Shown here: one piece after another, positions 415 through 51,615 of the stretch
How positions within the stretch are numbered: position 1 is the stretch's first letter
How the letters are laid out: the number at the start of each line of letters is the position of its first letter
Origin: Apostichopus japonicus
Lineage: Eukaryota > Echinodermata > Holothuroidea > Aspidochirotida > Stichopodidae
Assembly: GCF_037975245.1 (NCBI RefSeq)
Contig: NC_092582.1
Coordinates: 15,579,077 to 15,643,076 of the forward strand
Direction: 5' to 3'
Length of the DNA stretch: 64,000 nucleotides
Program-made: the position numbers and the translations under genes
The notes under the pieces: generated by a model
Database searches by the model: none
What the model saw: only the letters and a program-made list of their open reading frames with translations
What the model was told of the DNA's origin: nothing

Positions 415-585
415 ATGTCAGGAGTTGGAGGAAGTATGATAACTGAAGCCAATGGGAAGGGCATTCTGTACATGCATCTTTCACACCTCATAGTGAAACC
501 AGACTGTATAAGCTTGCATAAAGAGTGTATAATTGGTGGAAATTACCATGAAGTTCTTCATCAGCATACGTGGCTGAAGGAAAAG
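415..585 (+). CDS. Exon 1 of ACLY-like paralogue 1 (start codon exon)
   Basis: Encodes residues 1-57 and ends in donor AAG/gtaact. It was identified because its NGK and HTWLKEK segments line up with the YGK and YPWISNT segments of paralogue 2 exon 1, and because the exon ends in phase 0, as exon 2 needs. A second in-frame ATG lies at 436, so the first seven residues are less certain. Confidence 0.75.
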
Positions 586-3500: not shown

Positions 3501-6500
3501 TGAAGTCTCATATAGTCACCCACTGTGGTAGCTACAGTAGGTTTAGTAAAGCATTGGTACTGCATGGTTGCAAATTTTATGTTTTTTTGAAACTGCGAAG
3601 ATATACTTGAGCTTGATTAATGCTCAGATACAGATGCCGACTTTAATGGAAGTCCTTTCAAACAAGGTGTTTACTCAAAGTCAGCCTCGGGTCAGGTTTG
3701 GGACAAATTCAGTAAGATAGCACTGATTGGTTATAGATTTGATTTGATTTATTTGTTTTTCCTCAGTGTACAAACTTTAAATAGTGATAAAAGTCATATT
3801 AATTAACACGAGTCAATGTACAATGAGAAGGGAAGTGATCTATAAACCCTTTATAGGTTATATGCAGGCTTAATTAGTAGAGTCACTTCCCGAGGAAAAA
3901 AAAACATTATAATTAGAATCACACACATTGTTACCTTTTTTGTTTTTGTTTCATTTGCAGGCATCTAAAGTTTGTGTCCCTCTGAAGGAGCCTTTGGATG
4001 AAGCTGCTCTCCATGACTTACTATCAGAGAGGGTCACCGCTGCTGATGAAAGAGTGTCAGTGTGCAAAATGAGTTTATTATGGACCGGCATTAAGGGGAT
4101 GATAGAATGGGGGGGGGGGGGGTGTAATGGGCAGATGGGCTTTTAAAAGCTATTCAAGTGGCAATTGCCTTATAAAATGTTTGAGTGCCACCTGGTCATA
4201 TCAGCAAGGGTTTGAGTGCCAATTGACCATTGGCTGCTATTTTACTCCCATTCCATGAATTTAAGGAATTTATGTGGCAAATAAGCAGCAATTTTTGGTT
4301 GACAATTTTGAGATTCTTAATACCAGAAGGCAACAATTGTACGTAACTACTGTATGAAGCTGCAATTGAAAAAAGCATAAACATGGAGTTTGTGATTAAT
4401 TTACTATTTTTGGGCAACCACTCATGACCAGCTCCAAACCTGTACAGCAGCTGTTCAGTGTGGAGCAAGAGACATCAGGTTATTACCAACTTCCCTAATG
4501 TCTTATAAAACCTCCCTGACATTGCTTTTCATGGTCAGTTTTTTCACCATTTTACCCATAATAAAAGTACACGTTTTGTGGATGATATTTGTTTCTGACA
4601 TAATTAGGATAATTTCTTTTGTTTCTCTTCCTCTTCAGGAAACTTTCAGAGTTTATAAAGGAGTTGTTTCAGCTCTATCGAGATCTTCACTTTACATATT
4701 TAGAGATCAATCCTCTGGGTAAGGTTTCTTACCCTCTGCAGGGAATAAATTTTATCCAGAACTAATGAGAAAAATGTTATCCATAATGGACAAATTGCTA
4801 TACCAGTGTAAAGATGTACAGTATAGCATATTTAAGGGACAAAAATTCAGTGACTTCAAAGTAGTCAGACAAAATTTGAACGCTAAGTTATCATGTTATC
4901 CCCTGTCTCGGTACTTGTCTGGTTATTTTGCTCAGTTTATTTTATACGTGGAACCTGTTTTTGTTGTTTGCATTATCCTTGTATATCTGCATGCTTTCAT
5001 ACAACTGGCATTGTTATCAACAATGAATATGCATATTGTAGGTTTCTTTGTAACAACAAATAGTCAGAGAAAAAGGCTATACGAAATTGAAAAATTGCTA
5101 TGAACTTGAAGGGCAAAGATAGTACAAACAAGCAAAAACTGTTCCATATATAAAATAAAATGACCAGACAAACTCATACAAGCAGGGATACAGGGAATCA
5201 CTCAATGTCCAATGAATTTTGTCCCATTAAATGCATTTTTGCACTGATTTGTAGCAGACTTTCTGTGGCAAAACACATTAGTTGTTAAATTCACTTATAA
5301 AATTCTATCTGCATGATAACAGGCTGAAACTCGTATTTGTGCAGTTTGTGGCTTATGCTCAATATTGTTACCAAACTTTCTGCTTGATGTGGTACTGTCA
5401 TAACTTACTTATTTCCATTTCATAAAGTTGTTGTTGATCTATTCCATATATAACGATCGATTCCATAAATCATTGATGCTTCTTATAAGGATTGTATCTC
5501 TTCTTCTGACACAAAATTCAGTTATTTGTATTTGTACAAATAATTCATCAAAAGGTAAATGTTATGATACTATGAGATTTTAAGTTTTTGCATGTGATTA
5601 TGACTTATTAGGAGAAAGTTCCAATGTGAGAAAATCTTCTCAATGTTTGGTTCTGGTTTTGTATTGTTTTGTGAAACTTCTGTTAGTACTGAGTTTTGCT
5701 CAGTTAGAATATTTATTGACTATACACGTCTCACTGGGTTAGATAAAATTTCTGGAAATTGCTTTGTTGTATTTAACTGTAGTCCATTCAGTAACATAAG
5801 GCTCTGTTAATCCAATCTGTCCCTGATCGCTTCTGAATTGAACCTCTCCTTTTGCTAAAAACTGCAGTTATTCAAAACTTGACTGTGTCCTGTTTATTTA
5901 GTTTGACAGTTTAATTTTGAGTTATTTGACAGTTATGTAACTTGTCCTGTTTAATTAATTTAATTTTGACAGTTCTTCAACTTGTCCTGTTTCATTTAAA
6001 AATAATTTCTGAAAAAAGTCACCAAATTGCGACGAGTTACGGTTCAAATCTTTTCATGAAACTGCTTTGATGTTAGGATGTTAATATTGCGCAAAGTCTC
6101 ATTTTTAGTGAACCAAACTTTTTTCCTTTTTAACAGTTGTTCGTGAGAAGATACACGTCTTAGACGTAGCAGCTAAACTCGACCGTAACGCACAGTCTCT
6201 TTGTAAAGATAAATGGAGTTCAGAGGTCCAGTGGACAAAGAAAGCTGGAAGGGAGCAGATAAAAGAGGTAAAGTAAGGGTTAAATTTATCATTCTTGAGG
6301 TAAACAGGGGGGGGGGGGGGCGTGAATAGGAGGTTGTAGGAGCACATAGTTCAAGATTCAGTGTTTAATATTTTGCAGATCTCATTGTCATGGCTGTTTG
6401 TGTTATTTTTAAGATCTTACTTTGTCAAACAGAATTGATACAAGTTTAACTTACTTCGTAGGTCTTGATTGTGAGTGAGAAAAAATTGGGAAGTGCACCC

Positions 6501-9500
6501 CACTTTTTGACTGTTAGATGGCCCTACAAATATTAGCAGTATAGTTACACATAGTTAGTAGCATGTTCTGAGGAACTATACTTAATTTCTCTACTATGTC
6601 CTGCCCACCCCTCCATCTCCACCCCTGCCCAAACCGTCCCCCCCTCCCGGGCCCCCACTCAGTACCACATTAGGAGGAAGTACACAATGTACAAATAAAG
6701 AATAAAGAAATTCATGACTAGAATGAGATTCAAACCAGTGACCTTTGATTTACAAGCCCAGCTCTCCATCAATTAACTTAGCCTTCAGTGCTCATGCATA
6801 TCCTTATATATAGCACCCCTTATATATCCCTTATATATAGCACCCTTTATATATCCCTTATATATCCTTATATATAGCACCCTTTATATATCCCTTATAT
6901 ATCCTTATATATAGCACCCCTGATCCTTATATATAGCAACCCTGATATATCCCTTATATATCCTTATATATAGCAACCTTTATATATCCTTATATATAGC
7001 ACCCCTTATATATCCCTTATATATCCTTGTGTATCCTTATATATATCCTTATATATCCTTAAATATAGCACCCTTATATATCACTTATATCTCCTTATGT
7101 ATCCTTATATATATCCTTATATATAGCACCCCTGATCCTTTATAGCACCCCTTATATATCCCTTATATATCCTTATATATGGCACCCCTTATATATCCTT
7201 ATATATAGCACCTCTTATATATCCCTTATATATCCTTATATATAGCACCCCTTACATATCCTTATATATAGCACCGGCCCTTATATATCCCTTATATATC
7301 CTTATAAATAGCACCCCTTATATATCCATCATATATCCTTATGTATCCTTATATATATCCTTATATATCTTTATATAACCTTATATGTCCTTATTTATAG
7401 CACCCAGCAAAGTTTTGATCTGCAGTCAGAGACTACAGCTAGACAAGTTTCGTGGAACCAGATAGGACCAATATGACAGCGCCCTCTGTCAATTTTTGGG
7501 CGTGACTGGAGAGCCCCATTGATGTTACAAATTTGATGTCATTCTCATAATTAATCTTTAAATTTATTATAGTGTTGCTGAAATTTCTCTTTTTAATTTT
7601 TTAATTTTTTTTATAGGAGAAACATATCAGTTCTCTTGATGCTACCTGTGCTGGAAGCATGAAACTGACTGTTCTGAATAAGACTGGTCATTTATGGGCA
7701 GTCCTAGGAGGAGGTGGCACTTCACTGATGCTGGCGTAAGACTTTGTCACTTTAGAACATGCTTTTGTGATGAACAGAGTCCGTAGAATCTGAATACTGC
7801 GCTTTGGAAAAGAGTTTATTTCTAATTAATGTCTGAGCGTGATCAATTTCAAAGACTATATTCATACAGTCAATCGCTCAGTCTGTGTGTCAGTATTGAT
7901 AGCCTTAGTGTGGCGGCGCTAAATTGTTTTGATTACTCTGATGAAACACCCAAAATTGCCGTCAGGAATGATGAAATTGAGCGTAGGTTCTAAAATGAGT
8001 CCATACCATACACTCATTGAGACACAAAAGATTTCTGGGTAATTGGATTAAATGGTCGATACAACCCTGTAGTAAAGTTAGGAACGAGATATTTACAGGC
8101 TTTGTTAAAATCTTACCACCTTTGAGATGAAGCTCCGATTCTATATTTTATAAGCAGATATCTGTAGATCAGAATACGATATGTTTTCTACCTTAAAAAT
8201 TGGAAGTTGTCGACATTTTAATGTTAACGAATTGTTTGAAATTGAATTTTTTAATTTTTTTTTTTAATTTCACCAGTGACACAATGGATACTATGGCTTG
8301 TCTGGAGGAACTGGCCTGTTATTCACAGTTCACCAAACTAGATGCTAATGAATTGTATGAACTCCTCACGACAGTAATTGGATTAATGTTGGAGGAGGAA
8401 AAAGATGGAAATGGCAAGGCTTTGATGATTGGCAGTATAGCCAATGACATAGTTACCATGATCGAATTGAAGAAGATGTCTGGAGAGGTGCGTATTTTAC
8501 AGTAGACCGTTGTATTTTCTTTCTATATAGCTCACATCCCACCCGCCCTTTCCATTTTATATGGCTCAAGTAGCGAGGTCATTACTAGGGGTGTTAGCTC
8601 AGTGGTTAACGCCGGTGCCTTTCAATCAGAAGGAACCCGAGTTCGAGTCACTCCGAGATTATTTTATGTCGTCCAGTTACAGAGTTGTTGACAATTGACA
8701 ATTCATAATCATGGACGTTAATTATGAATCTAAGAGACTGAAATCGGTCAGCTTGCGGCTTTGATAAGCCAATGTGGCCTCTTCGCAAGTTCCTGCTTGC
8801 AGGAGGATCTAACATACATACATACATACATACATACATACATGCATACACACATACAGTACTATGTATGTGACTATATCTACTATCATAACAGTTTCTT
8901 TTTAATTGCCTAAATATGGTGCAGTCTCTGTTAATTAGCAAAAGTATTTTGGATTACGGCATCTTCATCTTCACGCAAGATTTTTACCCGCTGTGATACT
9001 ACACTGGTTTGCAATATTTTTTTTTATACTGGCCCAGGGGTTGGGGTTAACTTAACATGATTCAGTTTGAACAAACAAAATTGGATCTTGCAGTTCGAAA
9101 CACGATTTTTAGTAGCTGTCAGGAGGTAAACAAAGCCTTACTTGATCGTGAAATGTGAATTGCAGCATTTTTTTAGCTAACATAATATTCTGCCTCGTAA
9201 AAGCGAAAGCATACATTGACAGCTTGCCGTAACTGGAGGATCTGAATATGCAAGTGGTTACACATAGCTTTGTGATAGGTCTAAGAAGCCATTTCACTTT
9301 TCTTTAGCGCTATGTGACGTGAAAACTGATAACTGATGATGTTAAACCTGCCTTTCAAAGTCCATGGTATTGCAAGGCGATACTAGTATTTTCTTTTTTC
9401 TGCATATTTTCAGCCATCTTCATTTGCAGTAATATAGCAGTAGGAGGTTGGACTTCTGGAAATCATTTCTTCATGATTTAGCAGCACTGTGATCATACTG

Positions 9501-12500
9501 TTCTTATATTATTTTAGACTTTGTCACTCAATTTAGCAGATAATAATAACGTTACAAAGCAATCAGTGAAAACGAACGTTAGCTTTGTTTCAAGTAGGGA
9601 CTCTATTATTTTGTTAACTATTATAACTATTTACTATATATTAACTATATATAACTAGTTATTATAGTTGTTATAACTATCAACTATATATTTACTATAT
9701 ATAACTATATTATAACTATTAACTATTATAACTATTATTTTGTGCAGCTTTGAGTGCTGTCTTCATTCACATTATGTGAATGAAATCTGTACCAAAGTTA
9801 TCCTCTTGTTTTTTCTTTTGACCCTCAGGGAATCTTTAGAGCCCTCGATGAGTACAAGGATAAACTGAGGGCAGCAAATATTTCATTGATTATTCGATCG
9901 AATGTTGGAGTAGTGAGTGAGAAGAATGAGAAGGTACCATCTGAGCTGGCAGAGCTAGGTAAAATGTGTACAGTAGGATTTATTTTTTTATTAAGAAATT
10001 GTGTCACGAATAGGACAAAGGCGGTGGCATTTGAAGCAATAAGGCTTAGCAATTTGGAGGTTCCGGGATCGATACCCGGCCGGGTCATAGTAAGGTAGAT
10101 TTTCCCATCTGAAATGACTTTCTAAATTGTAAAGATACCATATTTAAGTTAAAATGTTGAATTGGAAGCCACCCGGCGTGTAAGTTATAATCCATAAGCC
10201 CTTGCGGGTTTCTCCCACATTTGTGGTTGCCTAAGCGTCGTAAAAATAACCGATTATTATGATCATCGTGATTTCAAAATATTGAAGTTTGGGTGTTTGT
10301 CATTCTGACAAGGATTCTTGGCTTTTGTTTGTGCCATATTCAGTTTAGTATCAACAATGTAACGAGATATTTTGAAATATTATATGTTGTTACTTTACTA
10401 TGAAAATCAGGTAACCGCTTAAGGTCATACTTTTACCCACTCAGCCTAGGCCTAGCTTACAATGTTTTCATACCAGAAGTACCAATTAAATGTAACCATA
10501 GAAACTCAAGGGCTTAAAAAGTCTGTTTTGATAGGACTTTTTGGCTGAAAGGATAGATAGGGTTGTCACAGAACCCTCAAAATCGACCAAGATTGATTGT
10601 CCTGTTTTTCATAGTGAAAAACTCTGTCCTGGCCGAAGACATGAATGTCCTATTTTGTCCTGATTTTCAGGACTTTTGGTGGAGAACAAGTACGTCTCTC
10701 TTTTTGGATATAGTTATTACTGCAATGGCTTCACTACTGCACATATTTCTACATTAGCAGTAAATTTCCATTACAACTTAAATAACAATAATATATATCC
10801 TAGTACTATATCATGGCTGAAAGTAGGAACAGCAACCAGTAGTTATAGGATTGTAAATGTAGTTTATAGCATCACTAGTCTATATCGAAGAGAAATACTA
10901 GATAACATTAATACCAATCATACAGTACTTGCCACGGTGATAACAAAAAGTAGAACTAGTTTGAAATACTCAAGAGTTTTCTAAGTATATTATTCAAACA
11001 ATATGAGCTACTTCAGGCAGTGGAAATAAACTGTTTAGGGCAAAATGTACTTTTACTAAAGAAGATTGTTTGATTTGAAAGAAAAAAGTAGTCAAAACTG
11101 TTTCTGTTGATTGTTATAAATGCTGTCATTTCACAGGTATTCCCATTTTCGTGTTTGGTGGCGATGTTCCGATACGTGAACTTGTCAATTTTGCTCTGAA
11201 GAAGACCTCCGACCCTCCCTCTAATCAGCCAAGAGCAACTTATCAGGTATTATATGATTTGTGTTTATCATCAATAACTTCAAAAAGTACATGATGTGTG
11301 AACTCCATACCTGGAATGTTGATTTACCATAATGATACTGATTATAGGAACTCTATTGTTTGTGTGGCAGTCAAAGGTCATCTGAGGTCAGTCTGCAAAC
11401 TTTGTAACCATGATAACTATAAAAGTAAAGCTTGGATAGGCTTTACATTTGGTATGTTGATTGATCTGATTGAGTGCAATAGTCCTATTATTGCTAAGGA
11501 GATCAAAGGACATTCCAGTGCCAACACAAAGTCTGAAAACTTTGTAAACACTAAAACTCCAAAAGCAAAGCTAGGATGAATTTCATACATAGTATGTGTT
11601 TAGCGAGATAGAAGGGGTATACGGATAAACAAACGTGACCTTCACTCACCTCTTTATTGAGTTGGCTGCGCTGAGTATCATCACCTGTCGCACCATAGTC
11701 CGTTCCCGTATAATACAAGGGAGATAGCAATGAGTCCGGCCGCTGGACGAATTATAATACGTAAAATGATATGGATAAAATGGTAAAATAAACTACATCA
11801 GGTCCGATGAATTATGTTAATGAATTCCCCGCGCAGTGCACTGATAAATAATATAATGTTCACTCCATTCAAGAGATCGTTATTTCCGACGTAGAAATAT
11901 GATGTTCCGAGGAAGAAAAATCCAATGTAAACAGATAAATTAATGAGCGAACAACTCGCGAGAAATTTAGGTCCGTTCACGACGATAGATCGTAGAGTTC
12001 CTCCGTTAACAAGAGGGCGCTCGAGTATATTACAAAAGAAATGAAAAGGTAGTAAATACAGAGTCGCTACATCAGCCCCCTCGCAGATCACAAATCATCC
12101 AAAAGTGATCGATAAAGCACGAGACAAAATGTCAAACAAATATGAAATACCCATATATTTACATGGGATCCTCAACCATAACGCGCTGGCCAATGAACGT
12201 GCCTGCCAGAACGCGTTATTGCTCTGGGGTTGGGCGCAGCCTCATGCGATTGAGTCGTGGCTGCCGAGGTCGGTGTCGGTGTCGTCGATCGTTTCGGCAC
12301 TGGTTTTGCTGTCGTTGTGGAGTAATTATGGTTTGCTGGGGTGTCGTCAGGCTCCTCCAACATATACGCCACTTTCAATCGGTCGATCGATACAGCATCG
12401 TGTTTGCCGTTCATGTCCAGTACAAAGTACTTGTCAGTCCTCTTGATGACTCGATGTGGGCCACGGTATGGAGGTTGTAAAGGACGCTTCACGGTGTCGT

Positions 12501-28177: not shown

Positions 28178-28228
<51 letters not shown>

Positions 28229-28987: not shown

Positions 28988-28993
28988 AATAAA
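28988..28993 (+). terminator. Candidate polyadenylation signal of paralogue 1
   Basis: AATAAA about 185 bases after the TGA stop. No transcript data are available, so cleavage position is unknown. Confidence 0.5.
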
Positions 28994-29264
28994 AATTTTA
29001 AGACCTGATACACCTCGGCAAGAACTCAGGTCATAAGAAGACAAGGTACTGGCATCAACCTGTAATGTGAAATCATAAATTAAATTGCAATTTATCATCT
29101 CCATCTTTTAGTATTCATTTCCATCACCTACGCAACACTGATTTAGACAACAGTAATCACTTCTTCGTTATTTATAATCTTGACTACTGCTGGTTCGACA
29201 TTAACAGGAAAGGAAAGCATACAAGGTTTATGAGTTTGACCAAGTACTGTAACTGCGGAGGATT

Positions 29265-29364
29265 ATAATCATGTTTGTCAATGCATAATCATGTTTGTCA
29301 ATGCATAATCATGTTTGTCAATGCATAATCATGTTTGTCAATGCATAATCATGTTCGTCAATGC
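29265..29364. repeat. Five tandem copies of a 20-bp unit
   Basis: Unit TATAATCATGTTTGTCAATG (later copies begin CATAATC), exact or nearly so, in the intergenic spacer. Confidence 0.97.
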
Positions 29365-30554: not shown

Positions 30555-30595
30555 ATATATATATCTATATATATATATATATCTATATATATATA

Positions 30596-30631
<36 letters not shown>

Positions 30632-30642
30632 TATATACAAAC
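30555..30642. repeat. TA/TATC microsatellite
   Basis: About 85 bp of (TA)n broken by TCTA units. Confidence 0.95.
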
Positions 30643-31033
30643 ATACATACACAGACAGTCAATAATATCTACACACATTACAATACATGTGGCATATATT
30701 CACCTACCCGCACATATGTTTGATCGTGTCTTATGTAGATAGGCTTATAAGCACTAAACGTTAACCACTTTGCAAACATGTCCATATGGCCTATATAAAC
30801 ATTGCAAGTACTTTTCTTGTTTCAGAAGATAATAACTACACAAACTGGACAGAATAGATATATTGAATCCCGAATATTAAAATAATACTAATTGATTATT
30901 CGCAAGCATTCCTTGCAGTCGAGCTTGCCCTAAATTTTTTATTCACAGAACAGTGATATTACTAATTTTGCCTTACAAAATACCGCAATAATCTTTATTT
31001 TTATTTGGTTCTTGCAATACACGGCTGACTGAA

Positions 31034-31075
31034 ACCAATCAATTCTTTTGGTCTTTTTTGTCTACCATATATATT
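31034..31075 (+). promoter_or_regulatory. Possible core promoter of paralogue 2
   Basis: A CCAAT box (31034-31038) and a TATATATT stretch (31068-31075) lie 30-70 bases before ATG 31104. The spacing would leave a very short leader, and TA-rich sequence is common here, so this is tentative. Confidence 0.25.
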
Positions 31076-31103
31076 ACTTTTCGATCTGGGCAGTAAATAA
31101 AAA

Positions 31104-37100: not shown

Positions 37101-40100
37101 CATACATACATACATACCAGGCGCGTATCCAGGATTTTCCAACCCGGGGGGCGCGAATTACTATCTAAGCGGAGCGCCACCATCGGTTGGCGCGCAGCGT
37201 ACAAGAAAATTTCTTGTTTTGAAACCCCCCCAGATCACCGGAAACGGCACTTCTCGGGCTTGAAATGACCAACCAGATGTACACTTTTTGCCTGAGAACC
37301 AGGTACTTCCTAATAGTTTTTTTTTTCCATCCATAACCTTTTTGAAGTTTGTCAACCCGGCACACATCATGTTCGACCTGATGGCATCTCCTGTGGGTCT
37401 TTGCTTTTGTAGGTGATTCTACGTCGCGGCCCACAATACCCGTCAGCCCCACTTTTCAAGGTTTTAAGCCCCATATTTGTTCAGAATTTGAAAATTCACA
37501 TTTCTCGTGAATAAACTGACTTGAAAACATACCCATAATCTTGTACAAAATTTCATCTATGGACAACCAATATAGAAAAACTTCCTTCAACCCCTAACAG
37601 ACCGGTCAAAATTGCACGAGTAGAGGGAAGTGTGATGCAGAATGTTGGTCAGAAATTTTCTAAAATTCCGACACAGTTAATTTATTGGTGTACAAACATT
37701 AAAACCTCTTATAACGGCTATTATAAAACTTGGTTGAAGGAAATGAAAAAATAGCAGATATTTCCTTCAACCGAACACTACACACATAGGCGTAGGAGGC
37801 GCGGCGGCAGTGGCGGAGCTAGGGGTATTGGTCAGGAGTGGCGAGAATGGTCTGTAGGAGCGCTTTCGACACTATCTAAGCGGAGCGCCACCACTGGTTG
37901 GCGCGTAGCGTACAGAAAATTTTTGAATAAATACACTCCCTAGATCGCCGGAAATGACCCTTTCCGGGCCTGGCTAATTTGCAGATAAACGAAGAATAAG
38001 GTGCCATCGCCAAATTACACCAACAAAATGTGAGAAATGTCAATAAGTAGATGAGAGCGCAATAAAAAAGTTAATAATCTAGAATAAGTAAAAAGTGGTA
38101 AAGAGCTGAAAAAGGCGCCAGCAGTCCATTTGAGTCCGTCAGGGGGGCATCCACCCCCCCCCCCCCGACCGTATGGACGCTCCGCCACTGCGCGGCGGGG
38201 GTGCAGCCCCTAATTCGCCATTACTAATGTAAAAGAGAGTTTTGACATAATTGGACCTCCATGCTTTTTATACATCTACATGAGACATGTCGTTGTTTAC
38301 ATTAGCATCCCGCGAAATACTGCGCAATTTGAACGGACCGTACGGTACATGATGGCATGCGATGTAATAATCGATGCTTGCTTATATGATATTGACATGA
38401 ACACGTTGAACGCGCGCTTAGCGCGCGAAAATTTTTGGTTATTTTTTCAGGCAAGTCGGACAGTTTTGAGGCTTTTCATCCTGGAACGCCATTTTCATGC
38501 TCACTGATATGATGTGATATCTGCTGTTTGCGTTACAAATTCGAACAGGCGCGTAGCGAGGAATTTGCCAAGGGAGGGGCGAAGCCTGTAGGCAAATTAT
38601 CTAAGCGTAGCGCCACCATAGGTTGGCGCGAAGCGTACAAGAAAATTTTGGCCGAAAATGCCTCCCAGATCGCTGGAAATGGCACTACCCAGGACCATTT
38701 GTTAGTGCGAAGCGTACAAGCAAATTTTGGCCGAAAATGTCTCCCAGATCGCTGGAAATGACACTTCCCAGGCCTTGTAAGTTGCCTCTAAGCACTTTCT
38801 ATTTTGAAATTACTTAGCGATATCATTTAAAAACAATGCTGAATGGGGGGGGGCGGGCGGTCGCCCCCATCCCAAAATGCGTCATGTTCCCCGACGACAC
38901 GGTCGAGTTCGAGACCAGCCACAGTTGGTTTCATAGCACAATTCTACACACGCGTTATGATAAACCATATATAGTACATATATAGATCATTAGTGAGAGA
39001 GGAAAATGGAAACGTCAAAAAATGGAGTTGTCGGTGTAAGGGGTAGGGTGAGTCACACTTTTACGAAATCATTGATCCGTCACTGGCTACCCTGATGTCA
39101 CTGTTCCTCTTTCTCTCCCCGGTGTCTTCGCGTTTTTCTTTTACTCCCTCCTTTTCTCCTTCTTCTCTCTTTCTTCTTTTTCTTTTCCCTTCCTTCCTCT
39201 CCTCCTCCTCTTTTTTCCCCTCTTTTTTCCTTTTTTTTTCTCTTTTTTTTCTCTCCTCTTTTTCTTACCCGGGGGGCGCGCGCCCCCAACGCCCCCCCCT
39301 GGATACGCACCTGCATACAAACACACATACACACGCACACATACGTGCTTATTTATATGCACGCCTATGTACGCTTTTGTATAAATAGAGCACTAAACTT
39401 TATCACATGTAGGAAACATGTATATTAGCAAACTTGGAAAGTCGTTCAATAATGCACATCGTAGTCTGTAGATCCGATAGAAAATCGTCTTGTTATCAAA
39501 GGATATATTAGAAGGAATTGCATTGTTTTGTTCATAAAGAAATGTGTTTTCTTTCGGATATGCCTTTACAGTTATCTCAACTGTAATTATAAGGTAGGGG
39601 AAGTTGTGATGGTATCCCCTATGTGATGCAGCAACATACAAGTGTGGGATGACTACTATATTACTATTCTTCTTTCACAGGGGTCACATGTTCGAATTCC
39701 CTTAAACCGAACTGTCAAAGAAGAGGAGATTCAGCATGCCTTACTTCTTGGAGTGCCAAAGAGGCAAAAAAGGTACACATTGGATCTGTCAAGTAGCTAG
39801 GCTAAGGAAGGGTGCGATGAGCAAGCTTTTTAAGAAAACATGCAGCATTGTGACTTGTTGACTTTGATAAACTTTTCAATGATATTTGACAATAAAATCG
39901 CATGACAATATAGGCCATTAAATAGCCACCTTTCATAATGACAATAAAATGTTTTGTCTTTTGCATGTGATTAATTAAATTTAGTGTTTGGGGCGACGAA
40001 ATGTTGAGAATTAAATTTAACGGCTTGATGAGGTGTCAGAAAATTACCTTTCTGACCCTCCTCCCTCTTGCCTTCTCCCTCCGAAGAGAAAAGGGAAAAA

Positions 40101-43100
40101 TGACCGACATTTCAAGCCAACTAATTCGTTTTTAACATTAATTGTTATTATCCGGATTTTCTCAACAGTCAGATTGCACATTTCATCAAAGAGTTATTTG
40201 GTCTGTACCGTGAACTACACTTCACTTACTTGGAGATTAATCCTTTTGGTAAGTCTAGAAATTTCTCTTTCTTCTTTTCTCGTTTTCCCGGGAAAATGAA
40301 AATAGTTTTCATTGACATCCGTATCTTGTATTTTCAGTTGTCAAGGAGAAAGTTCACGTTTTAGATCTTGCTGCCAACTTAGACTTAAGCGCCCAGCCGC
40401 TTTGTCAAGTAAAATGGGGAGACGATGTTGCTTGGACCAAGAAGCTTGGGAGGGACCAACTGGAGCAGGTAAGTTTTCATCAGACAATTTAACTCTAAAA
40501 CGTTTTGATATTAATATGATCCTGTTGGTTATGCGCAATAGTACTTGGAGGTGTGGGAACGGGGGGGGGGGGGCGAAGCTGATAGGACAGTGGCCCATAT
40601 ATTCAACATCACGCTATTTGCTCGACCATGTATGGTAGATATGAAATGTATGCTATAGCAAGATATATATTTGTGGGCTGCATTGGTCTCGACGGTGCTC
40701 ATTCTCACAGGGAATTAGATTTCTAACAGAAAGTGTTTCGATGCTTATGTTCAGATAAACCTCTAACAAAAAAACACCATAATGTACTGACTGACGTAAA
40801 TGAACGGTCTGGTAAGAAAAATATGTTAGCTAGCTTCCATTGATGTAGATTTATATCAAGCCTTAAAGGCAGATCTCCATAAACCAATTTCTCCTGTTAT
40901 AGTAAGAAGCCATCTTCTTTAGATATCACTTAAACAAGCCCTCCCGCTGCCTCTGTGTGCAGAGTGTGTTTGTTTTTTTCTTCCATTATGTTTGTGTTTT
41001 TGTACAAATTAATTTGTTTATTGCATTGACTTGCTTCCTCACTTACCTTACTCCACTCAAACCATGCACGCCTCTGTCTGCCTAACCTGCACAAATTTTA
41101 CCTCTGCGCCATCACCGAACTTCTTCCGTAAATACCCCCTCCCACAAAAATGTTGGTTTTCATGTTTTATTATAAAATAAACTACCAAAAAAAAAAATAA
41201 CACCTGATGTTGTGGATTTTATATAATAATTATATACTACTCACACATGTAATAGTTAATTCTTTGCTTTCTTGTTGTTTTATAATTAATTTACCTTATT
41301 AATTTGATCACGTGGTGTCTTCCATATCACAGGAAAAGACAATCAGTGACATAGATCGTGTCTCCATCGCGAATTTGAAACTGACCCTGTTGAACAAGAA
41401 AGGTCGTATCTGGACTGCCATTAGTGGAGGAGGCATCTCGCTACTCTTAGGGTAAGGTATTAAACCTTAAAGTCTTCTATCAGCTGGGCATACAAAGACA
41501 CAGAATGGTTTCCAATAGCGTAACTCATTGGTCCTGTGATTTTGTCTAATTGGCGCAGCTTTAAGTTTAATGGAATAGATCAAATGAACAGACTGAAATG
41601 GGACCCAGAAGTGTTGCAATTGCCGGCCCGAAGCGTCAAAACGCCGCGTCAAAATCATAGCTATACAAATATTGAGGGGGCACGTCTGAATCCCCTCCCT
41701 ACTCACGTCAGTGTTGGCTTTCCTGGAAGGTTTTCGTGTCCTCCGACAGCAGTTAATCCAAGGGAAACCACAACTTAAATGCTCAGTTATTGACCTAGAC
41801 GGTGGTATGGTGTATAAATCGTTGAAAAACAAACATGTGTTTCAAAGAATATATTAGAATCTAATCTTAAATGATTGTAATCGTTCTTTGGTTTGGGAGT
41901 TACCGTAATATTTTGAACTAAACCAATTTTGAGTAAAGCTCAGCACGGATTTTTGTTCATTTTTCATTGCCAATGTAATCGTTATCTTTCTTTTGTTTTT
42001 GCTGCATTAGCGACACTATGAAGGAGATGGAATGCCTGGATGAACTAGCTTGTTACTCACAGTTCTCTGGGCCAGTCCCAGCTCCGGAAATTTACGAGTT
42101 TTTCAAAGCTATTCTAGAGTTGATGTTGCAGGAGAAGTCGGAGAATGGCAAAGTTTTGTTTACCGGCAGTCAGGCTCTGGATGTGGTTACGATGATAAAA
42201 CTAAAAAAGATGCAGGGAGAGGTAAGCTCATTGGAACGCAATATATTTTTTACAGAGGGGTCCACTGTAGGGGGAACCAGTATAAATCCGTGAGGGTGGG
42301 GTGTGGGCCTGACAAGAGGGGCATGTATTTAAGGTAAAAGGAAATATAGACGAAATGAAGTGTTAACGTATTTCATAGATCGGTGAAGGTAGGTGCTCTT
42401 TAGTTCACAGACAAGTTCCGAGGGATTGGAATATACTGGAGTCTCCTCTTGGAATTGCAGGTTTTGCCAGAAATGGTCATACTAAAAGGTGTAAACATTC
42501 ATCTAGGTACACTTTAAATCGTTAGCTATAGAAGAAGCTTGTGTGAGATGACATTTGCTCACATCACAAATAAAGAAGGAAAAAGAGGAATTGGGTAGAT
42601 CTTGTCAATAAGAAGAAATAATGGAATCTTGCGAAAATTTTCTTGTGAATGTTGACATTTGCATAATCGGTGCAATAGACTTCTTATCCGTTTGTTTACG
42701 CAGTGATTTCCAAATAACAACACTAAACATTTCTGTTTGTCAAACTTGAACTCATCCATCTATCGTTTTTCTTCTTTTCTTCAAAGGGTATGTTCAGAGT
42801 TCTCGATGAATACAAGGAAAGAATGAGGGAAGCAAACATCTCGATAATCATTAGATCCACCGTCGGAGTAGTCAGTTCAAAGAATGACAAAGTTCCTGAT
42901 GAACTCTTCAACTTCGGTAAGCGCTCACGGGGAAACTGTTATGAATCAATTCACTGGATAGTTGTCTGGGGGGGGGGGAGGGATGGGGGTAGTAGGGAAG
43001 GGGTGAGCGGGCTAGAATAGATTAAGTTAGGGATGAAGGAATGTGTTAGAAGGTATAGCCTACTTTTTAAGGGAGAAGAAGAAACATGCTATTCTTATTT

Positions 43101-46100
43101 ATAGACTGGTTAAAACGGAGCAACACCTCATCTCAATACGGTTAGCATAATAAATTGAAGGGAACTTGCAATTAATATACACCACAAAAATCTTTTGTTT
43201 TTACAGGGTTTTGGAACCTTTAGACACAAATATTTATCATTTGCAGTTACAAAAATTGATGAATGTAACGTACCCTAATGAATCATTTAAACTTAGTATG
43301 AACTTCAGACGTTCATTCTTTGCGATAATTTTCATCGAAACATCTTGTAACCCTTATCTCTTCATAGGAATACCGATATACATCTTTGGTGGTGACGTTC
43401 CCGTAAAAGAACTAGTACATTTTGCATTACGGCAAAAAACCGTCCCTTTGAATGAACCTCGAATCTGTCGCACGGTTTGTATTAAACTTATCTGTACATT
43501 AAATTTTTTTGTTCTGTTCTGTTGTAACAAAAGGGACACCCCCAACCGTACCGGCCTCGGTTTGAAATTTTTCAAACGAGACTTTACTAACCAACCGAAC
43601 TAAGATTATATATGTAAAAAGCTGTTCGAACGATAACTCTTCGAGTTGTTTGTTCACTTCGTAATCGAAATGAATTTATAATATGGATTACATTTGTTGT
43701 CCAGAAACTTTGTGGATAGCATAGCGAAGTCTGAATATTACACCCATTCACCATGTTATGTCATCCAACGGGTGGGGTGGGGGTCAAGGATTTAAACTTT
43801 GGTGAATTGGAGGGTACTATATTTTGCAACTTAAGAAATTTCGAATGCTATGGAATGTTATGTCTTAACACATATACATGTTACCTGTATCTATTTATGT
43901 ACTTTGTAGTAGGATTTTTTAATATTTTGTCTGTCACTGGGGAGTGGGGAGGGATGAATTCCTGATTTTATTCTAGGGGGAATTTAAGTCCCCATTTGGT
44001 CTAAACTCAGTCTGTCTCATTAACTTCATCTTATCTTTGTTGTATCAGATGGATATTCCATCAAATTCAGGTCGAGTGTCCCTCCCTAAAATAAACAGTC
44101 CTGAAGAACTTTTGTTTACAAGAGAGACAATGGTAAGTTTAGTAAATGTTGCTATGATTACTTGTCGACGATTGAAATAACAAATATGTTAATTTAATAT
44201 TCGTATTGAATATGCATTCTTTTTTTTTAAACAAAACGGGATGAATTGTCAGAAGATATATACATTTTCAATTGGTTTCAATTGATAACTACATTAGTAC
44301 AATGTATATGCAATGAGTAAACTTTCGTCCAAAGCGAAAGTTTCACTGTGTTTAATATGGTACATGTAAATATAATTCAAGCCTTCATGATATCCTTTAC
44401 ATGTATGGAGTATAACTGTTGATATTGCATTATTATGATGTATGCTTGTCAGAGGGCTAACTAAATATGACCGTAATGGATCAAACATAACACAAGAGGA
44501 TTAAACAAGAAAATTAAACGAAAAGGTTGTGATGAACGTATAGCTCTCTCATAGGTTGTAACAAAACATTACCATTTTCTAATTTCTGTGCAATGTAGAG
44601 TTGTCTTTCTTATGAAGAAGTCAGTAGATGTGCTGTTTCGCCTTTTAGTGGATTACTATTTACCTAACACATAGTCTGTACGGACAAAACTGTGCCTAGC
44701 TTTTTAGTGTGGAATTACTAGACTATGGTTGATGGCCTAATGGTTTGGCAACAATGTTAATGCCTTGTTTTTGTTTTTCAGATTGTTGCCGTGGGGATGA
44801 TCCCGCCAGCGATTCAAGGAATCCTGGACTATGATTTCATCTGTCAAAAGAAGCGACATATGATTGCTGCTATAGTAAGACCTGGCTGGTAGGTCTTTAA
44901 TCAAAATGATTTACAAAACTTCTGTGCTGCTTTCTTTTGCTCACATAAATGAGACATGGACACAGAATGAGTGCGTTGTTTATCTTAGATGCATTTGGAA
45001 TTCCTCAAGTTTGTTTGACAAACGGCAAGGAGTAATCAAATCATGCGCTTTGCATGCAACAAATATTTTTAAAATATATTGTTCCATTGGGGTTACAATG
45101 TTGTTACATTTGCATTCGCCCTATACCGCCTTATATACCGGCCTAATTTAATTTCATCATTTTCTTCATTGCATTGGAAACCTTTCCCTTTATGAAAAGT
45201 AATTCCTTCAAATTCCTTCGAAGTTAAGATTTGCTTGCTTGACATTGGGGTTATTAGATACTCCCGCAAAGTCAGTCCACGCAGTCGTCATAAAAAAACT
45301 TTGCCCACAATTACCCTTTCCTAACAACTTCCGAACGATAATTATGAAGTATGGGCTGATGGTAAAAGTTTGTGCAGTTATATACAATATTTTAGGGAAT
45401 GTGAATAATTTGCATGTAAAATGTCAATATTAAAATTTCGACTATATACTCTAGTTTAATACTAAAATACTTCTTTTTGTAAAATAACAATCCTGGCTTC
45501 AAGGGGTATGTCCTAAATGAATTTTACGTAATTTAACCTACAACTTACTTGACTTAATTTCGTTCTATAGTAAACATCAGGAGGAACAATATTCTTGGGG
45601 TTCTGGTAAAGTTTCAATTCCAGGTAAATTTCATCCATCTGCATTTTCTAATATATTTTTCTGAAGAACTAAAACAAATATTAAATGGAATGTGATGTTA
45701 AATGTGTCCTGCACTGACTTACCTGGTTGTTTCCATATTAGAAATGGTCGACGTTTCAAGAAGCGCCGAATTGTATCTTGAATTTGACCCATTTTTCGCT
45801 TGTCCTCTGTTCCTGTCTTTTCATACTCGTTGTAAACAACTGAATCGATAATGTTTAAGCAGGTATTCAAATAATGTTTAATGTAAACAAAGATTTCTAG
45901 AGGTTAAATTTGAGTCTCGAATTCCATGAATGAAGAAAGTCTTATTGATAAGATACTTGTATCTGTAACTGCTGCACACTTAGCTAGTTAATGCAAGAAA
46001 AATTAAATTTATTTTGATGTAATTTCTGTTTTTTGCTTCACTCCGTTTGTAGTATTCCATGACGTGGATCGTGCACTGGATTCTCATCCCGAAGCTAGTG

Positions 46101-49100
46101 TTGTAGCCAATGCAGCCCCTGGACCTTATGCCTATAAAGTGGCATGGATGGCTCTACAGAAACCTCAGGTGAATAGTCTGAGAATGAGAAACAGTTCTAC
46201 CAGAAGATGAGCTGTTAGTTTAGTTTAGTAGAAAAAAAGGATCAGGAGGGACACTCAAGTCCCCATCAAGGACCCTATAGGAGAGAAAAAAATGAAGACA
46301 CAAACACTCAGACCCGATTACAATCCTTAAAGTGCTTGTCCACAGCATTCTTAAACCCATTCACACTACTTGTGAGCTTACTTTTCCATGCTTACTTTTA
46401 CTGCTAAGTTTGAAGTTACTGATGTCACTCCTTTCTTATATACCTGCCTTCACTTAACAATTTTTTTTAATTAGCCTAAATATGTTGGTTACATCTAATC
46501 ACCGCGACCATTCATTGCAGCACTTAAATATCTAACTGTTAGTACTTGAGTACATTTTTTCGTACTCAGAACTTTGTAATCGCATTATAAGTCTACCCTA
46601 AAAACCCCAGCATGAACAAACATCGCAATTCATGAATGATGGATGTTTTTTATTTCCCAAATAGGTCCGAGCAATGATCCTGATGGTTGGAGAAATCCCC
46701 ATTCAACAGATCAGAGAGCTAATCCTTCTAGCCAGACAAAAAAACGTGATGATTATCGGTCCTACAGTGGTGAGTAAATACATTAGGTATTTGTTGAGTG
46801 TTTTTTCTTTTTCTATTTCATTACTCTTATTCGTTTAGCGTCTCTCGTCAGATGTCCACTTACTTCATGACCAAGCAATTGCGAAAAAAAAATCAAAATA
46901 TATTGAACACGTGGCCTAGTTGAGGTGTGTAGGAAATTGGGTCTGCACGTCCCCAAGTAATAATAAACTAACAAAGTGAATGTACAAAAATAAAAATTGT
47001 ATGTTTCTAGTTGTAATCTTGGTTATTGATGGTGTCCTTAATTCTTTACCATGCAGAAGGTGTGTGTATGTTATATAAACTCTGTAAAAATGAGAACCTT
47101 ATGTCATTTAATTTCATCAGCCGAAGCATCGTTTACAAGTGAATGTTCTTAAACCAGGCGTATTCCGGTGCAATCTACTGGGCGACATAGGAGGACCCAT
47201 GTTGGACGTCGTTGATCTTAAACTCTATCGACCAGGAAGTGTGGTTATGCTCTCCAAATCTGGTGGTCTCTCAACTGAACTGTGTGTTGCAATCGCTAGG
47301 AATTCGGACGGCTTGTATTTATGTTTGTCTCTGGGTGGAGGAAGGTAAGTGGGAGAGACTCTCTCCATACGACTCGACGGTTTACCATTCCCCTAGGGCA
47401 GAGGTTCCTTAACTGGGGTGCATGAACCCCCAGGGGTAGCGTGAGTCCATCCCAGGGGGTTCGTGAGACGTTTCTGAGAGTCAAAACTAGAGTACTCTTT
47501 GTTGAACTAAAATCTGATATATAATATTGATATAATTTAGTAATGTACAAAAATCGTACCCATCGAACTCTTTTCGCGTTCCATACGCATCTGTTTCCAT
47601 AGTAGTACCGTACCGTGCATGTGATTAATAACTGAATTATGAAACGGACACAGGCCGCATGACTTTGGTGTATTTGCTGTACGCATCACAGTACGTCGTG
47701 AAGATAAAGAGCTGAGAAATTAAGTAACTGAAAGGTTGGCCAAAGTAATTATTATTATTTGGAAATTCCAGATGACCTCCATTTTACCCGACACAAAGCA
47801 AAGTTAGCATAAATTAGGATAAATTCATGCTTGAAAATTGCGTGAAACACGTAGTCACTAGCCTGTTTTGACATGATATACCATCGTGTGTGATGGGTGT
47901 TCGATGCCTAATACAATTCGTGATCTGATCTTGAAGTTTCCAAATAAATATTTGTTAATCTCTTGTTTTTTCATTACAATATTACACTATGAACTTTTAC
48001 GAAGCAATGTATAATATAATAATGACTCAGATCGCGTCTCGAAAAAATGGGGGGGGGGGGTTCGTGGGGGATAAAGTTAGGGAAACCCTGCCCTAAGGTT
48101 TGTTCAAAATTCGAGTATCAAAGTTTTATGCTGCTAGGCAAGTTTGTCTCCACTCTCTCACCTGCCTCTGAGAAAGAAACTATGCCTAGCAATCGTAAAA
48201 ACTTCCCTGCGAATATAATTTAAATGGTGTCTCATCCCACATCACGTTCTTTCCCTCTTCTACACAGGGATTTATGGAGTATATATAACAGCAAGTTTGT
48301 GTTCCTTCTTATGTCTTGCCTATGTATGGACAACGAACAAATCGTACTTTTAGATATCATCGCGGTATCTGTGGGATAACAAACCAAAGTTTACAAGAAC
48401 AAATGGCAACTACCCCACCTTATCCTATCTGTATTAAAAATGGCAGGACAGCTATGACACATTATATCACGGCCCTCGTGTAATTGTTCAGAATAATAGG
48501 AAAAATCCAGATAAAATGTTTCAGCCTCATCATAGGTCACTTCTTATAACTGTTCCTGCGCATAGCCTTGAATGAATGAGAAAACCATGAGATCGTTCAT
48601 CAAATGAAGATCACATTTGACACTAATGATTCTTTCTTTCTCCTTTCCATAGATTCACAGGATCTGGCTTCATGGATCATATAAAATATCTCCATGACAA
48701 CCCAGCTGTTAGCATGTTTCTACTTATTGGTGAGGTAATGTATTTTGTGACATACATATCAATACTATGTACCAGGTTCATGACAGAACCGCTCAAATTC
48801 ATAATAATTTAGGTCTATGCGACTTGTCAGTGGTATGAAACAAAATACATCTTCTTTGTATAAAACCTTGTCCCCTGTGTTCTCCTCAGGTTGGTGGACA
48901 AGATGAATATGAGGTTTGTGATGCAATCAGAAACGGGTCGATAACGAAACCGGTGATAGCTTATTGTATAGGTGCAAGCGTTTCTCACTTCCAAGATCAG
49001 GTAACACCTACATTTTTTTATCTCGAGTTGAGGGAAGCATTGGCCATCAGCTATTTCATCTATTCGTGATGACAGGTCTTGTGTTGCTGCCTCTGCCAGT

Positions 49101-51615
49101 CTGTTTAGACTTAGGCAATGCCAATATTTTTCGGGGTTGAATACTTATTTAATATCATAGTTAGGCGTCAATTTAAAGTCTCAGTACTTGTTTGGCAAAT
49201 TTAAACCTCGACATTTCCAGCTTACTGCACTAATAGCTTAATGAAAATGACACCTATCTATGCAATTTTCATGTCAATATTCATTATTTTTTATTTAGTT
49301 ATTGAGTTATTTTGAGCTGAATTCGCTCAAACAAAATTCGCAAGCCCCGCCCAACAGATCATGCTCCAATCAAATCTCTCTGTTTTTTTTACGGCCATTA
49401 GGCCTAGGACTTTCAATTTCGTGGCTAGTCTGTGTTAGGTCCCTTTTCTTGAATAGTATCTTTCTCTCGGCCTTACCGATGTAGCTTGCGAAATTGTGTC
49501 ATTTCCTTCCATTGCAATGACTGAACAAGTGTTTCCTCTAGGGAATTAGGTAAAACAAAGTAGACGATACGAGTTTATACGATTGCGTTAAAATCTTGAT
49601 CGGGCCGCATGTGTAGACTATTTTGTTTACATTTGTGTAATGAACATGCTGATATGGGCGGTCGCAGTGATTTTACGGTAAATCGTTCGCTCCATAAGGG
49701 CAAAAGGAAATAAATGTCTTTCTTTCGATTGCGACAGCCTTTCTCCATTAAACCCATCTGGTTAGAGTGTATTTAGAATAAGAAATATTGAAACTACTTC
49801 CGAATTTTGTTTTCCGAAATTTCATCAACAAACAGGTATTTAGACTTTAAAAGGGATATCCAAACGAACGTCCACGACATGTATCATTTTACAAACGTTT
49901 TGTTTCGTCATGTTTTCATCTTGTTGAAAGTCTCCCTCATTCCACCATATCTCGAATAAGGGCTATAGATCAATAAACTTTGAATATATTTACCGAGGAA
50001 TTTTTTTATTTTTATGCCGACTTAATTAGATGAACACTATTTTTAAACTTTTTTGTTCAGCCTGCTTTTTTCGGCCACACCGGAGGTGGTATTGATATGG
50101 AGAAGGAAGACGCTAGTGTGAAGAACCAGGCCTTGAAAGATGCAGGAGCTTTGGTCCCGGATTGCTTCGATGGTATCGCTGATAAAATAGGGTATGAATT
50201 AAGCTCATTGAAGACTCGCCCCAAACCGCGTGCGGCCATCTGAAAAAGTTAACTTACCGTTGCTTGCTAGTGACGTTTTGTTCGTGTCGCTACAAAATGC
50301 AGACAGTAATGAAACGTGATACCTTGTTATCTTTTATCTAGACCTGAGATGTCCATCGCTGCTATGTACACTGTGTTGTCGGAATTGACCGTAGCTGCAT
50401 GTATTGACTGTGCACTGAGTCTAATTACCGACGGTAGCAAGCTGTGTGTGTATTTTTTTGGATCGATGGTGGTGTCTAAAATTTCTGTTACCATGGGCGG
50501 CGATCCTGGGGGGGGGGGGGGATATATCCCCCCATGAAAATGGGTGGAGGGGATGTAATACACCATATCCCCCCCACCAAATGCCAGGGATAAGAATATT
50601 TTCATGCCTACATTTATGCATCATCGTGAATGTACGGCTCTTTTTTAGCTTCATATCTCGCCTACCATAAACACAGTATTATCTTTTCAAATAAACCGTC
50701 TTTATAAAGCAAGAATAGTTGACTGTAGGCTTCATTGGACCTAGAAACAACAAAATGTATTATTGCGCCCACGGTATTGATATAGTACATATATGCACCC
50801 TCATAGTATTCATATAGGCCCTTTAGTAGGCCTACACACGTACATGTTCCCTCGAACAGCTGAGAATCTCATGTTACCAGGGTAATGCTTAATACACGTT
50901 TCACCTGGATGCCCTAGCAATCGGTACCTAGGAATGTAACTATGTGTAATTGTGTATTGCATGTGTATAGGCCTATAATAGCCTGCATGAGGCCATTTTC
51001 TTCATCGAATAATATAAAAGAGCTCTCGAACATTCTAACGTAGCGCCTGAAACAAGATTGACAGGGGCAATTTACCAAAATAACACCAGAAATTGAAGAA
51101 AAAAAAAATTGGATCCTGATTATGAGATATTTCGGACATGATATCCCTATTTTAAAGTTGGGTATATGCCGCTTGGAAACCTCGGGAAGTGCCGTTTCCG
51201 GCCATCTAGAGGGTTTGTAAATCCCAAAATTTTCTTGTACGCTTCGCGCCAACTCATGGTGGCGCTACGCTTAGATAGTCAACAAGGTCATATCCCCCCC
51301 CCCCCACTCAGAAGTACGGATCGCCGCCCATGTCTGTTACACATCATTCGAAACTAGGTCAGATTACCGGCATTAGACGTTTCTTTCTGCGCGAGTCTTC
51401 ACACCCTTTAATCTAAGAACTAACAGCAAAAGTATCAAATTTTTCTAACAGTACTTTCGGTAATAAGAGGGACGTTTTCCATTTTATTTTGTTGCAGTGA
51501 GGTTTTTGACAAGTTAGTCAAAGATGATAAAATCAACCCAACATATTCTGCAGAAGCGGCACCGACCATTCCAAAAAACATGAAGGCATCTTATCGACCA
51601 CCAGCAGTTCTGTAA
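31104..51615 (+). CDS. ACLY-like acyl-CoA synthetase lacking citryl-CoA lyase domain, paralogue 2 (20 exons, 810 aa)
   Basis: Second tandem copy. Exons: 31104-31256, 32575-32694, 36654-36812, 39681-39772, 40169-40248, 40338-40468, 41333-41451, 42011-42221, 42787-42916, 43368-43474, 44049-44132, 44782-44888, 45571-45623, 46053-46168, 46665-46769, 47121-47344, 48653-48734, 48890-49000, 50061-50191, 51498-51615. The sum is 2433 nt, in frame to TAA. Motifs: ATP-grasp VVKPDQ (54-59), LEINP (196-200), CoA-binding SGGL loop, phosphohistidine loop FFGHTGGG with His734, and a proline-rich end PPAVL. Compared by eye with paralogue 1, exon 16 is about 77% and exon 2 about 60% identical in protein, while introns do not align. 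The C-terminal lyase domain is absent here too: the stop is followed by repeats, not by further homology. The citrate-site segment SIAN of paralogue 1 is SQAL here. It is probably an active synthetase with altered substrate, or a regulatory pseudoenzyme. Confidence 0.94.
31638..32215. repeat. Very long uninterrupted (CCCT)n microsatellite
   Basis: About 578 bp, some 144 perfect tetramers, in intron 1 of paralogue 2. It is pure pyrimidine on the plus strand and purine on the minus. Open reading frames across it (PPSL or GGRE polymers) are artefacts. Confidence 0.99.
33249..33696. mobile_element. Candidate TTAA-flanked MITE
   Basis: 448 bp with TTAAAGGGGCA at one end and, inverted, TTAAAGGAGCA at the other, in intron 2 of paralogue 2. 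No ORF. Confidence 0.5.
34119..34319. mobile_element. Candidate TTAA-flanked short MITE
   Basis: 201 bp bounded by TTAAAGGTAGTCAGTAT and, inverted, TTAAAGGTATGCTGTAT, in intron 2 of paralogue 2. Confidence 0.5.
34320..36653. other. Rest of intron 2 of paralogue 2
   Basis: 2.3 kb. A GTGTGG/CCACAC-rich section (about 34650-35200) contains a 159-codon open frame with no recognisable domain. Otherwise nothing was recognised. Confidence 0.5.
37808..38190. mobile_element. Non-autonomous hAT element
   Basis: 383 bp, ends CAGTGGCGGAGC in inverted orientation, flanked by a perfect 8-bp duplication CGCGGCGG (37800-37807 and 38191-38198). The 8-bp duplication and CAG terminus are typical of the hAT superfamily. 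It is nested inside the larger element at 37118-39313. Confidence 0.85.
38548..38775. repeat. hAT-derived GCGCCACCAT…GGTTGGCGCG modules
   Basis: Two adjoining copies of a unit containing GCGAAGCGTACAAG and a CTCCCAGATCGCTGGAAATG core. Related copies are at 37160-37265, 37870-37975 and, inverted, 51180-51280. Confidence 0.7.
39101..39268. repeat. Pyrimidine-rich simple sequence
   Basis: TTCTCTTTCC-type low-complexity tract inside the hAT-like composite element. Confidence 0.85.
42011..42916 (+). CDS. Exons 8-9 of paralogue 2: strongly altered citrate-site-like module
   Basis: The loop equivalent to human SIANFT reads SQALDV (338-343), and the arginine-strand equivalent reads IIIRS with Ser379 at the second arginine position. 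All three human citrate contacts that I recall (Asn346, Thr348, Arg379) are therefore replaced, while the ATP-grasp motifs and the catalytic histidine remain. Confidence 0.85.
49197..49836. repeat. Dispersed repeat, copy 2
   Basis: Relative of 26625-27291 in the same orientation, but in intron 18 of paralogue 2, on the other side of the phosphohistidine exon. The two insertions are therefore independent of the gene duplication. Confidence 0.8.
50061..51615 (+). CDS. Exons 19-20 of paralogue 2: phosphohistidine loop and stop
   Basis: Exon 19 (50061-50191) encodes [12 protein letters not shown] with His734. Exon 20 (51498-51615) encodes GEVFDKLVKDDKI and a PAVL end, then TAA. The intron carries a nested transposon pair (50199-51411). 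No exon resembling a citrate synthase domain follows before 54794. Confidence 0.9.
50199..51411. mobile_element. TTAA-flanked element, copy B (interrupted)
   Basis: Same family as 2427-2793 in opposite orientation, in intron 19 of paralogue 2. Both ends retain TTAA and the TGAAGACTCGC repeat. Its middle is split by the hAT-like insertion 50492-51332. Confidence 0.8.
50492..51332. mobile_element. hAT-like element nested in the TTAA element
   Basis: 841 bp, perfect 15-bp inverted ends CATGGGCGGCGATCC, flanked by an 8-bp duplication TCTGTTAC (50484-50491 and 51333-51340). The uninterrupted sister copy has the single site GTAACAGA near 2500. No transposase frame; the interior includes a GCGCCA/TGGCGC module. 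Confidence 0.88.

Follow-up and report, generated by a model that had tools for sequence, protein, structure and literature searches.

Within a 64,000-nucleotide stretch of the sea cucumber Apostichopus japonicus genome (contig NC_092582.1, hereafter the window), we identified a tandem pair of genes related to ATP-citrate lyase (ACLY), termed gene 1 and gene 2. Both encoded proteins cover the whole synthetase half of ACLY and end in the linker ahead of the citrate synthase homology (CSH) domain. The same CSH-less architecture occurs in eight echinoderm species from three classes, some of the models being partial. From sequence comparison, we lean toward the view that this family comprises ADP-forming carboxylate synthetases, producing an acyl-CoA or an acyl phosphate, which would have changed their acid substrate after derivation from a duplicated and truncated ACLY. 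The acid is probably not citrate.

Gene structure of the tandem pair

A tblastn search with human ACLY revealed two colinear exon series on the plus strand of the window. We modeled the genes by splice-aware alignment to human ACLY and refined them by hand, including the linker exons of both genes, where wrong automatic exon calls were replaced. The initial annotation, made from the sequence alone, had described a tandem pair with 20 exons each, and the refined models bear this out with two complete genes and GT-AG borders at 38 of 38 introns. Neither frameshifts, internal stops, nor lost splice sites were found in the 20 + 20 exons.

415-28804, + strand: gene 1, ACLY-like without CSH; coding sequence 2460 nucleotides, 819 residues, 20 exons
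Exons of gene 1 (+ strand): 415-585, 1742-1861, 2134-2292, 3961-4055, 4639-4718, 6137-6267, 7617-7735, 8277-8487, 9829-9958, 11137-11246, 17431-17520, 18462-18568, 19515-19567, 20658-20773, 21545-21649, 22113-22336, 23549-23630, 25256-25366, 26188-26318, 28690-28804
31104-51615, + strand: gene 2, ACLY-like without CSH; coding sequence 2433 nucleotides, 810 residues, 20 exons
Exons of gene 2 (+ strand): 31104-31256, 32575-32694, 36654-36812, 39681-39772, 40169-40248, 40338-40468, 41333-41451, 42011-42221, 42787-42916, 43368-43474, 44049-44132, 44782-44888, 45571-45623, 46053-46168, 46665-46769, 47121-47344, 48653-48734, 48890-49000, 50061-50191, 51498-51615

The positions and phases of all 19 introns coincide between the two genes, and 15 of the 20 exons are of equal length. 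The two proteins share ~57% sequence identity, with a dN of 0.34 and a saturated dS that precludes a dN/dS ratio. Their identities to human ACLY are 35 and 36% (earlier models), a match far beyond chance (E ~1e-163). The NCBI model P0001 of A. japonicus is 98–99% identical to gene 2 across 80% of its length. Exon 16 of both genes contains a family-specific insertion (PKHxLQV), which is missed when the genes are aligned to human ACLY alone.

22113-22130, + strand: insertion PKHSLQ, start of exon 16 of gene 1
47121-47138, + strand: insertion PKHRLQ, start of exon 16 of gene 2

Pfam searches, performed with the models before the exon 16 correction, identified the ATP-citrate synthase ATP-grasp (PF24948), Citrate_bind (PF16114), ATP-grasp_2 (PF08442), Ligase_CoA (PF00549), and Succ_CoA_lig (PF13607) domains in both proteins, with E-values of 4.5e-71 and 7.6e-72 for PF24948; neither protein had a Pfam match to a citrate synthase domain. 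The pair shares with the acyl-CoA synthetase homology (ASH) half of animal ACLY the order of ATP-grasp, citrate-binding fold, CoA-binding, and CoA-ligase/phosphohistidine parts. The ATP-grasp, phosphohistidine, and CoA-ligase traits of the ADP-forming acyl-CoA synthetase superfamily are present, as judged from Pfam and the fold.

Absence of the CSH domain

The stop codons are located 75 (gene 1) and 76 (gene 2) residues beyond the phosphohistidines H744 and H734, respectively, matching the ~75 residues and the PPASC and PPAVL ends that had been noticed at the outset.

28690-28804, + strand: last exon of gene 1, in-frame stop, PPASC end
51498-51615, + strand: last exon of gene 2, in-frame stop, ending PTIPKNMKASYRPPAVL before the stop, PPAVL end

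By a count made by eye, the stop of gene 1 comes approximately five codons after the point that corresponds to the donor of exon 19 in the ancestral ACLY. True ACLY continues after exon 19 with the CSH exons; we infer that the corresponding exon of the paralogues is extended by about five codons and then terminates. The last exons of the database models agree, with P0001 ending in PPAVL and P0006 in PPASR, whereas the automatic A. japonicus model P0002 reads past the end of exon 19 into the adjoining intron and is devoid of the last exon.

No CSH exon was detected by tblastn with human ACLY in the window. When the whole genome was searched with the CSH part of the ACLY query, only the true ACLY gene on C18 was matched, with none on C22, so the suggestion that the pair naturally lacks this domain holds. 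A genome search with PF00285 returned a match at C18:19.38 Mb only and missed the known ACLY CSH exons at C18:0.3 Mb. Short CSH exons can thus escape the profile, and the search with the ACLY query is the better test for CSH.

An echinoderm family

Family members were found in A. japonicus, Holothuria leucospilota (680 residues, model cut short), Lytechinus pictus (825), Strongylocentrotus purpuratus (680, N-terminus missing), Diadema antillarum (824), Asterias rubens (827), Patiria miniata (819), and Acanthaster planci (769 and 520, on two scaffolds). A search for ACLY homologues without PF00285 had been proposed in the initial annotation, and PF00285 was found in none of these members. The frames proved open in the relatives, where their loss had been named as a possible refutation, and the pair represents a stable gene family instead of a broken copy. 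Echinoderm classes are several hundred million years old.

Members of at least 648 residues scored 1064–1464 bits in one of the protein searches, compared with 832 bits for the best ACLY among the matches listed. Two of the three protein searches scored the best 8000 candidates. Outside echinoderms, no member occurred among the best 120 matches listed per protein search, and members may exist in hemichordates, crinoids, or other groups. For the comparisons below we used ten family sequences, leaving out P0001, P0002, P0006, and P0040, which represent the A. japonicus pair in alternative models. An IP[AKS]N[ML]K tail, unseen in ACLY, forms the C-terminus in all eight of the ten sequences that reach it.

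The A. planci proteins P0138 and P0182 differ from each other and stem from two scaffolds, which suggests a second duplication in this species; both models look incomplete. Another protein, P0133, scored above ordinary ACLYs and carries CSH, yet it was excluded as a transitional form on account of its ordinary ACLY motifs AEGVP and GGIKPGCF. Its 1020 residues contain two successive ACLY-type C-terminal stretches with a CSH-like part in each. Proteins of the CSH-less family are named ATP-citrate synthase in the databases. We found no paper on such a family in the open-licence literature, subscription journals lying outside that search.

Origin from ACLY

The true full-length ACLY of the same genome resides at C18:306752-336302 on the minus strand, with 26 modeled exons including the CSH part. 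With gene 2 as the genome query, all 41 matches at E ≤0.01 fell on the window genes or on this ACLY (best candidates scored). Of the 19 introns in each paralogue, 17 have a counterpart of equal phase in the true ACLY no more than 8 alignment columns away, and 14 of these occupy the identical column. An eighteenth, located in the linker, which could not be aligned, has the same phase at a distance of 10 columns, and the intron at column 557 is absent from the true ACLY. The common introns therefore indicate gene duplication at the DNA level. Retroposed or decayed copies are ruled out by the introns and the open frames, and an origin from bacterial citryl-CoA synthetase by sequence distance together with the introns shared with ACLY.

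We calculated two phylogenetic trees, the first with 30 sequences and the second with 26 including more starfish, for which seven of 33 sequences, including P0182, were dropped for speed. The family forms a single clade with 100/100 support in both trees. More than one attachment among animal ACLYs is compatible with the data: a clade of the family with A. japonicus ACLY was not rejected (p = 0.113), and a tree keeping metazoan ACLYs together without the family had a marginally higher score than the unconstrained tree (p = 0.562). The stem branch of the family is long (1.49 changes per column).

Inside the family, starfish separate from sea urchins and sea cucumbers, matching the species relations. 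Gene 1 falls outside gene 2 plus Holothuria (support 100/96 with 30 sequences and 99/97 with 26), and an exclusive pairing of gene 1 with gene 2 was rejected by the approximately unbiased (AU) test (p = 0.015). A recent tandem duplication private to Apostichopus is thereby disfavored, and the split between the two genes would predate that between Apostichopus and Holothuria. Gene 1 and gene 2 may have split functions.

Conservation of the active sites

We scored the columns invariant in 23 ACLYs and read them in the ten family sequences. The ATP-grasp part retains 30 of 51 such columns in every covering sequence and lost 2 in all. The corresponding numbers are 10 kept and 21 lost of 58 in the citrate-binding part, 8 and 10 of 39 in the CoA-binding part, and 32 and 18 of 73 in the CoA-ligase and phosphohistidine part. 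Fisher tests on these counts take the columns as independent, which they are not. The ATP-site residues are retained, and the phosphotransfer residues K58, R65, R66, E201, N203, D216, E718, and H760 (human ACLY numbering) are intact in every covered sequence, with H760 retained in all seven that cover the histidine loop. The catalytic E599 is replaced by glycine in all ten, and E, D, H, or Q takes the place of the invariant ACLY glycine that follows it.

26203-26205, + strand: phosphohistidine codon of gene 1, H744 (human H760)
50076-50078, + strand: phosphohistidine codon of gene 2, H734 (human H760)
21569-21571, + strand: glycine codon of gene 1, G573, at human E599
46689-46691, + strand: glycine codon of gene 2, G563, at human E599
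8434-8448, + strand: rebuilt citrate-site loop of gene 1, S345...D349 (human G342-N346; alignment uncertain by one residue)
42168-42182, + strand: rebuilt citrate-site loop of gene 2, S338...D342 (human G342-N346; alignment uncertain by one residue)

All nine covered sequences have C, Q, S, and D at the positions of N303, E306, G342, and N346, respectively, the alignment near N346 being uncertain by one residue. The region of N346, T348, and R379 presumably provides the citrate contacts in ACLY. R379 is S or T in all six urchin and sea cucumber sequences and is retained only in the starfish (4/4), where R576 is also kept in three of four, with K in Asterias. F347 is not retained in the family; its movement is tied to catalysis in published ACLY work.

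As a control for sequence divergence, we used 17 beta and 17 alpha chains of split-subunit ATP-citrate lyases, hand-picked from the listed matches; some are near-identical, and the few named ones are from bacteria and archaea. Compared with human ACLY, the control beta chains are 33–49% identical in the ATP-grasp part and 55–66% in the citrate domain, keeping 46–57 of its 58 invariant columns. The family shows 38–52% and 31–38%, respectively, with 19–24 of the 58 columns kept in nine sequences; P0182 keeps 14 of the 31 it covers. All 17 beta chains retain N346, F347, T348, R378, and R379, and all 17 alpha chains retain E599.

Possible functions of the family

The family arose by duplication of an ordinary ACLY gene and loss of the 3′ CSH exons, with translation presumably ending a few codons beyond the former splice site of exon 19. 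What was left, the acyl-CoA synthetase half, would have been repurposed for a reaction that cleaves no carbon-carbon bond. We favor a reading in which the family still activates an acid, but a different one, because its ATP and histidine parts are intact, whereas its acid site and E599 are changed alike in three classes. Enzyme activity, the nature of the acid, and the participation of CoA are predicted.

Several observations weigh against this reading. The missing E599 could have left the proteins inactive. The CoA-binding domain is degraded, with 16–23 of 39 invariant columns kept in full sequences versus 27–35 in the control alpha chains, and the phosphohistidine half keeps 38–51 of 73 versus 56–69, although the family is not distance-matched to the alpha controls. 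PF02629 (CoA_binding) matched Patiria P0132 (27.6 bits) and Acanthaster P0138 (27.4 bits; cut-off 22.3) but neither Lytechinus P0004 nor the window genes. The change of the acid site is graded across the family, with starfish retaining R379 and R576, which makes for no clean story, and gene 1 has a gap at G309, otherwise retained in the covering sequences. The evolutionary rate of gene 1 is also approximately threefold that of gene 2 (0.81 vs. 0.27 for the end branches). Finally, according to PMC10115795, human ASH in isolation produces citryl phosphate when given ATP and citrate but is unable to bind CoA by itself, and a CoA reaction without CSH is therefore not guaranteed.

The main rival, which we consider rather unlikely, is a regulator with little or no catalysis, which would bind ATP and perhaps become phosphorylated at the histidine without producing acyl-CoA, serving as a sensor or a partner of true ACLY. 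It would account for the loss of E599 and the degraded citrate and CoA domains, the long stem branch, and the end branch of gene 1, the longest among nine family sequences. The absence of CSH, by which ACLY tetramerises according to PMC10115795, also fits. The intact phosphotransfer set argues against a regulator, as do new family-specific invariant residues in the acid site, which suggest a new binding site instead of decay.

We regard it as quite unlikely that the family works outside CoA chemistry. The histidine, once charged by ATP, would in that case turn a novel substrate of lower acidity, such as a hydroxy or amino acid placed opposite the invariant aspartate, into its acyl phosphate for transfer to a non-CoA acceptor. 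If true, it would be an echinoderm-specific acid-activating enzyme made from half of ACLY.

Very doubtful is a citryl-CoA synthetase, which would convert citrate, ATP, and CoA to citryl-CoA for a separate lyase, and the initial comparison with a fused bacterial CcsA/CcsB is not supported. The domain layout, the retained G309 outside gene 1, and the starfish R379 are in its favor, as is one citE-like (HpcH_HpaI) gene on C21 in the genome. However, we take this gene most simply to be the usual animal CLYBL, and no lyase gene adjoins the pair. The citrate-site residues conserved in the 23 ACLYs and the 17 beta chains are replaced, R379 is lost in urchins and sea cucumbers, and so is E599 throughout. 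CcsA/CcsB is far more distant in sequence than human ACLY (6hxq_A, the CcsB-type small subunit, E 6.8e-22 vs. ~1e-163), and the pair differs from it as a single ACLY-derived chain whose citrate site is not kept.

Degenerating copies or gene-model artefacts, with dying genes or unused last exons, are hardly credible: the P0002 model and the fast evolution of gene 1 would fit, but both genes have open frames and canonical splice sites, the independent models P0001 and P0006 use the same last exons, the C-terminal tail is common to urchins and starfish, and the gene 1–gene 2 split is older than that of Apostichopus and Holothuria.

The pair resembles the ASH half of animal ACLY in sequence identity and at least 17 of 19 introns common with the C18 gene, and differs from ACLY by the missing CSH, the replaced citrate-site residues, the E599-to-glycine change, the insertion after the GPT/GPS/GPC motif, and their own C-terminal tail. 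Unlike succinyl-CoA synthetase and other ADP-forming acyl-CoA synthetases, the pair has the beta-alpha order in one chain and an ACLY-type citrate_bind domain. The glutamate at ACLY E599 is replaced, also unlike succinyl-CoA synthetase; we take E105 of the human enzyme, named in PDB titles, to be its counterpart. Mutants of E105 have reportedly been studied.

Whether the CSH module of ACLY is catalytic or allosteric is debated, with the isolated ASH half at the center (PMC10115795). In this family, that very construct occurs naturally and has persisted for a long time. With the ATP and phosphohistidine machinery kept over several hundred million years while CSH, E599, and the citrate site are gone together, the division of labor within ACLY becomes directly testable. 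A new acid-activating reaction in echinoderms may come to light, and the ATP-citrate synthase label would mislead metabolic reconstructions. An ATP-citrate synthase phosphopeptide reported from A. japonicus (PMC6037860) belongs to the true ACLY and not to the pair, and is therefore no sign of the pair's expression.

Other features of the window and its surroundings

Intron 10 of gene 1 contains open reading frames (ORFs) of a long terminal repeat-type retroelement (12172-16214, - strand), encoding a gag-like DUF7041, aspartic protease, reverse transcriptase, RNase H, and integrase; its 1062-residue ORF is open. Intron 1 of gene 2 harbors a near-perfect (CCCT)n array of ~145 copies (31640-32220).

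55195-55770, - strand: ORF located downstream of gene 2 and containing an ApeC (apextrin C-terminal) domain (E 2.1e-15)
60478-61474: 19-base tandem array, ~54 copies, open in several minus-strand frames
L039:1705-3695, - strand, within 10 kb upstream of the window: two ORFs with a match to flavin-binding monooxygenase (FMO-like) that probably represent exons from a single gene

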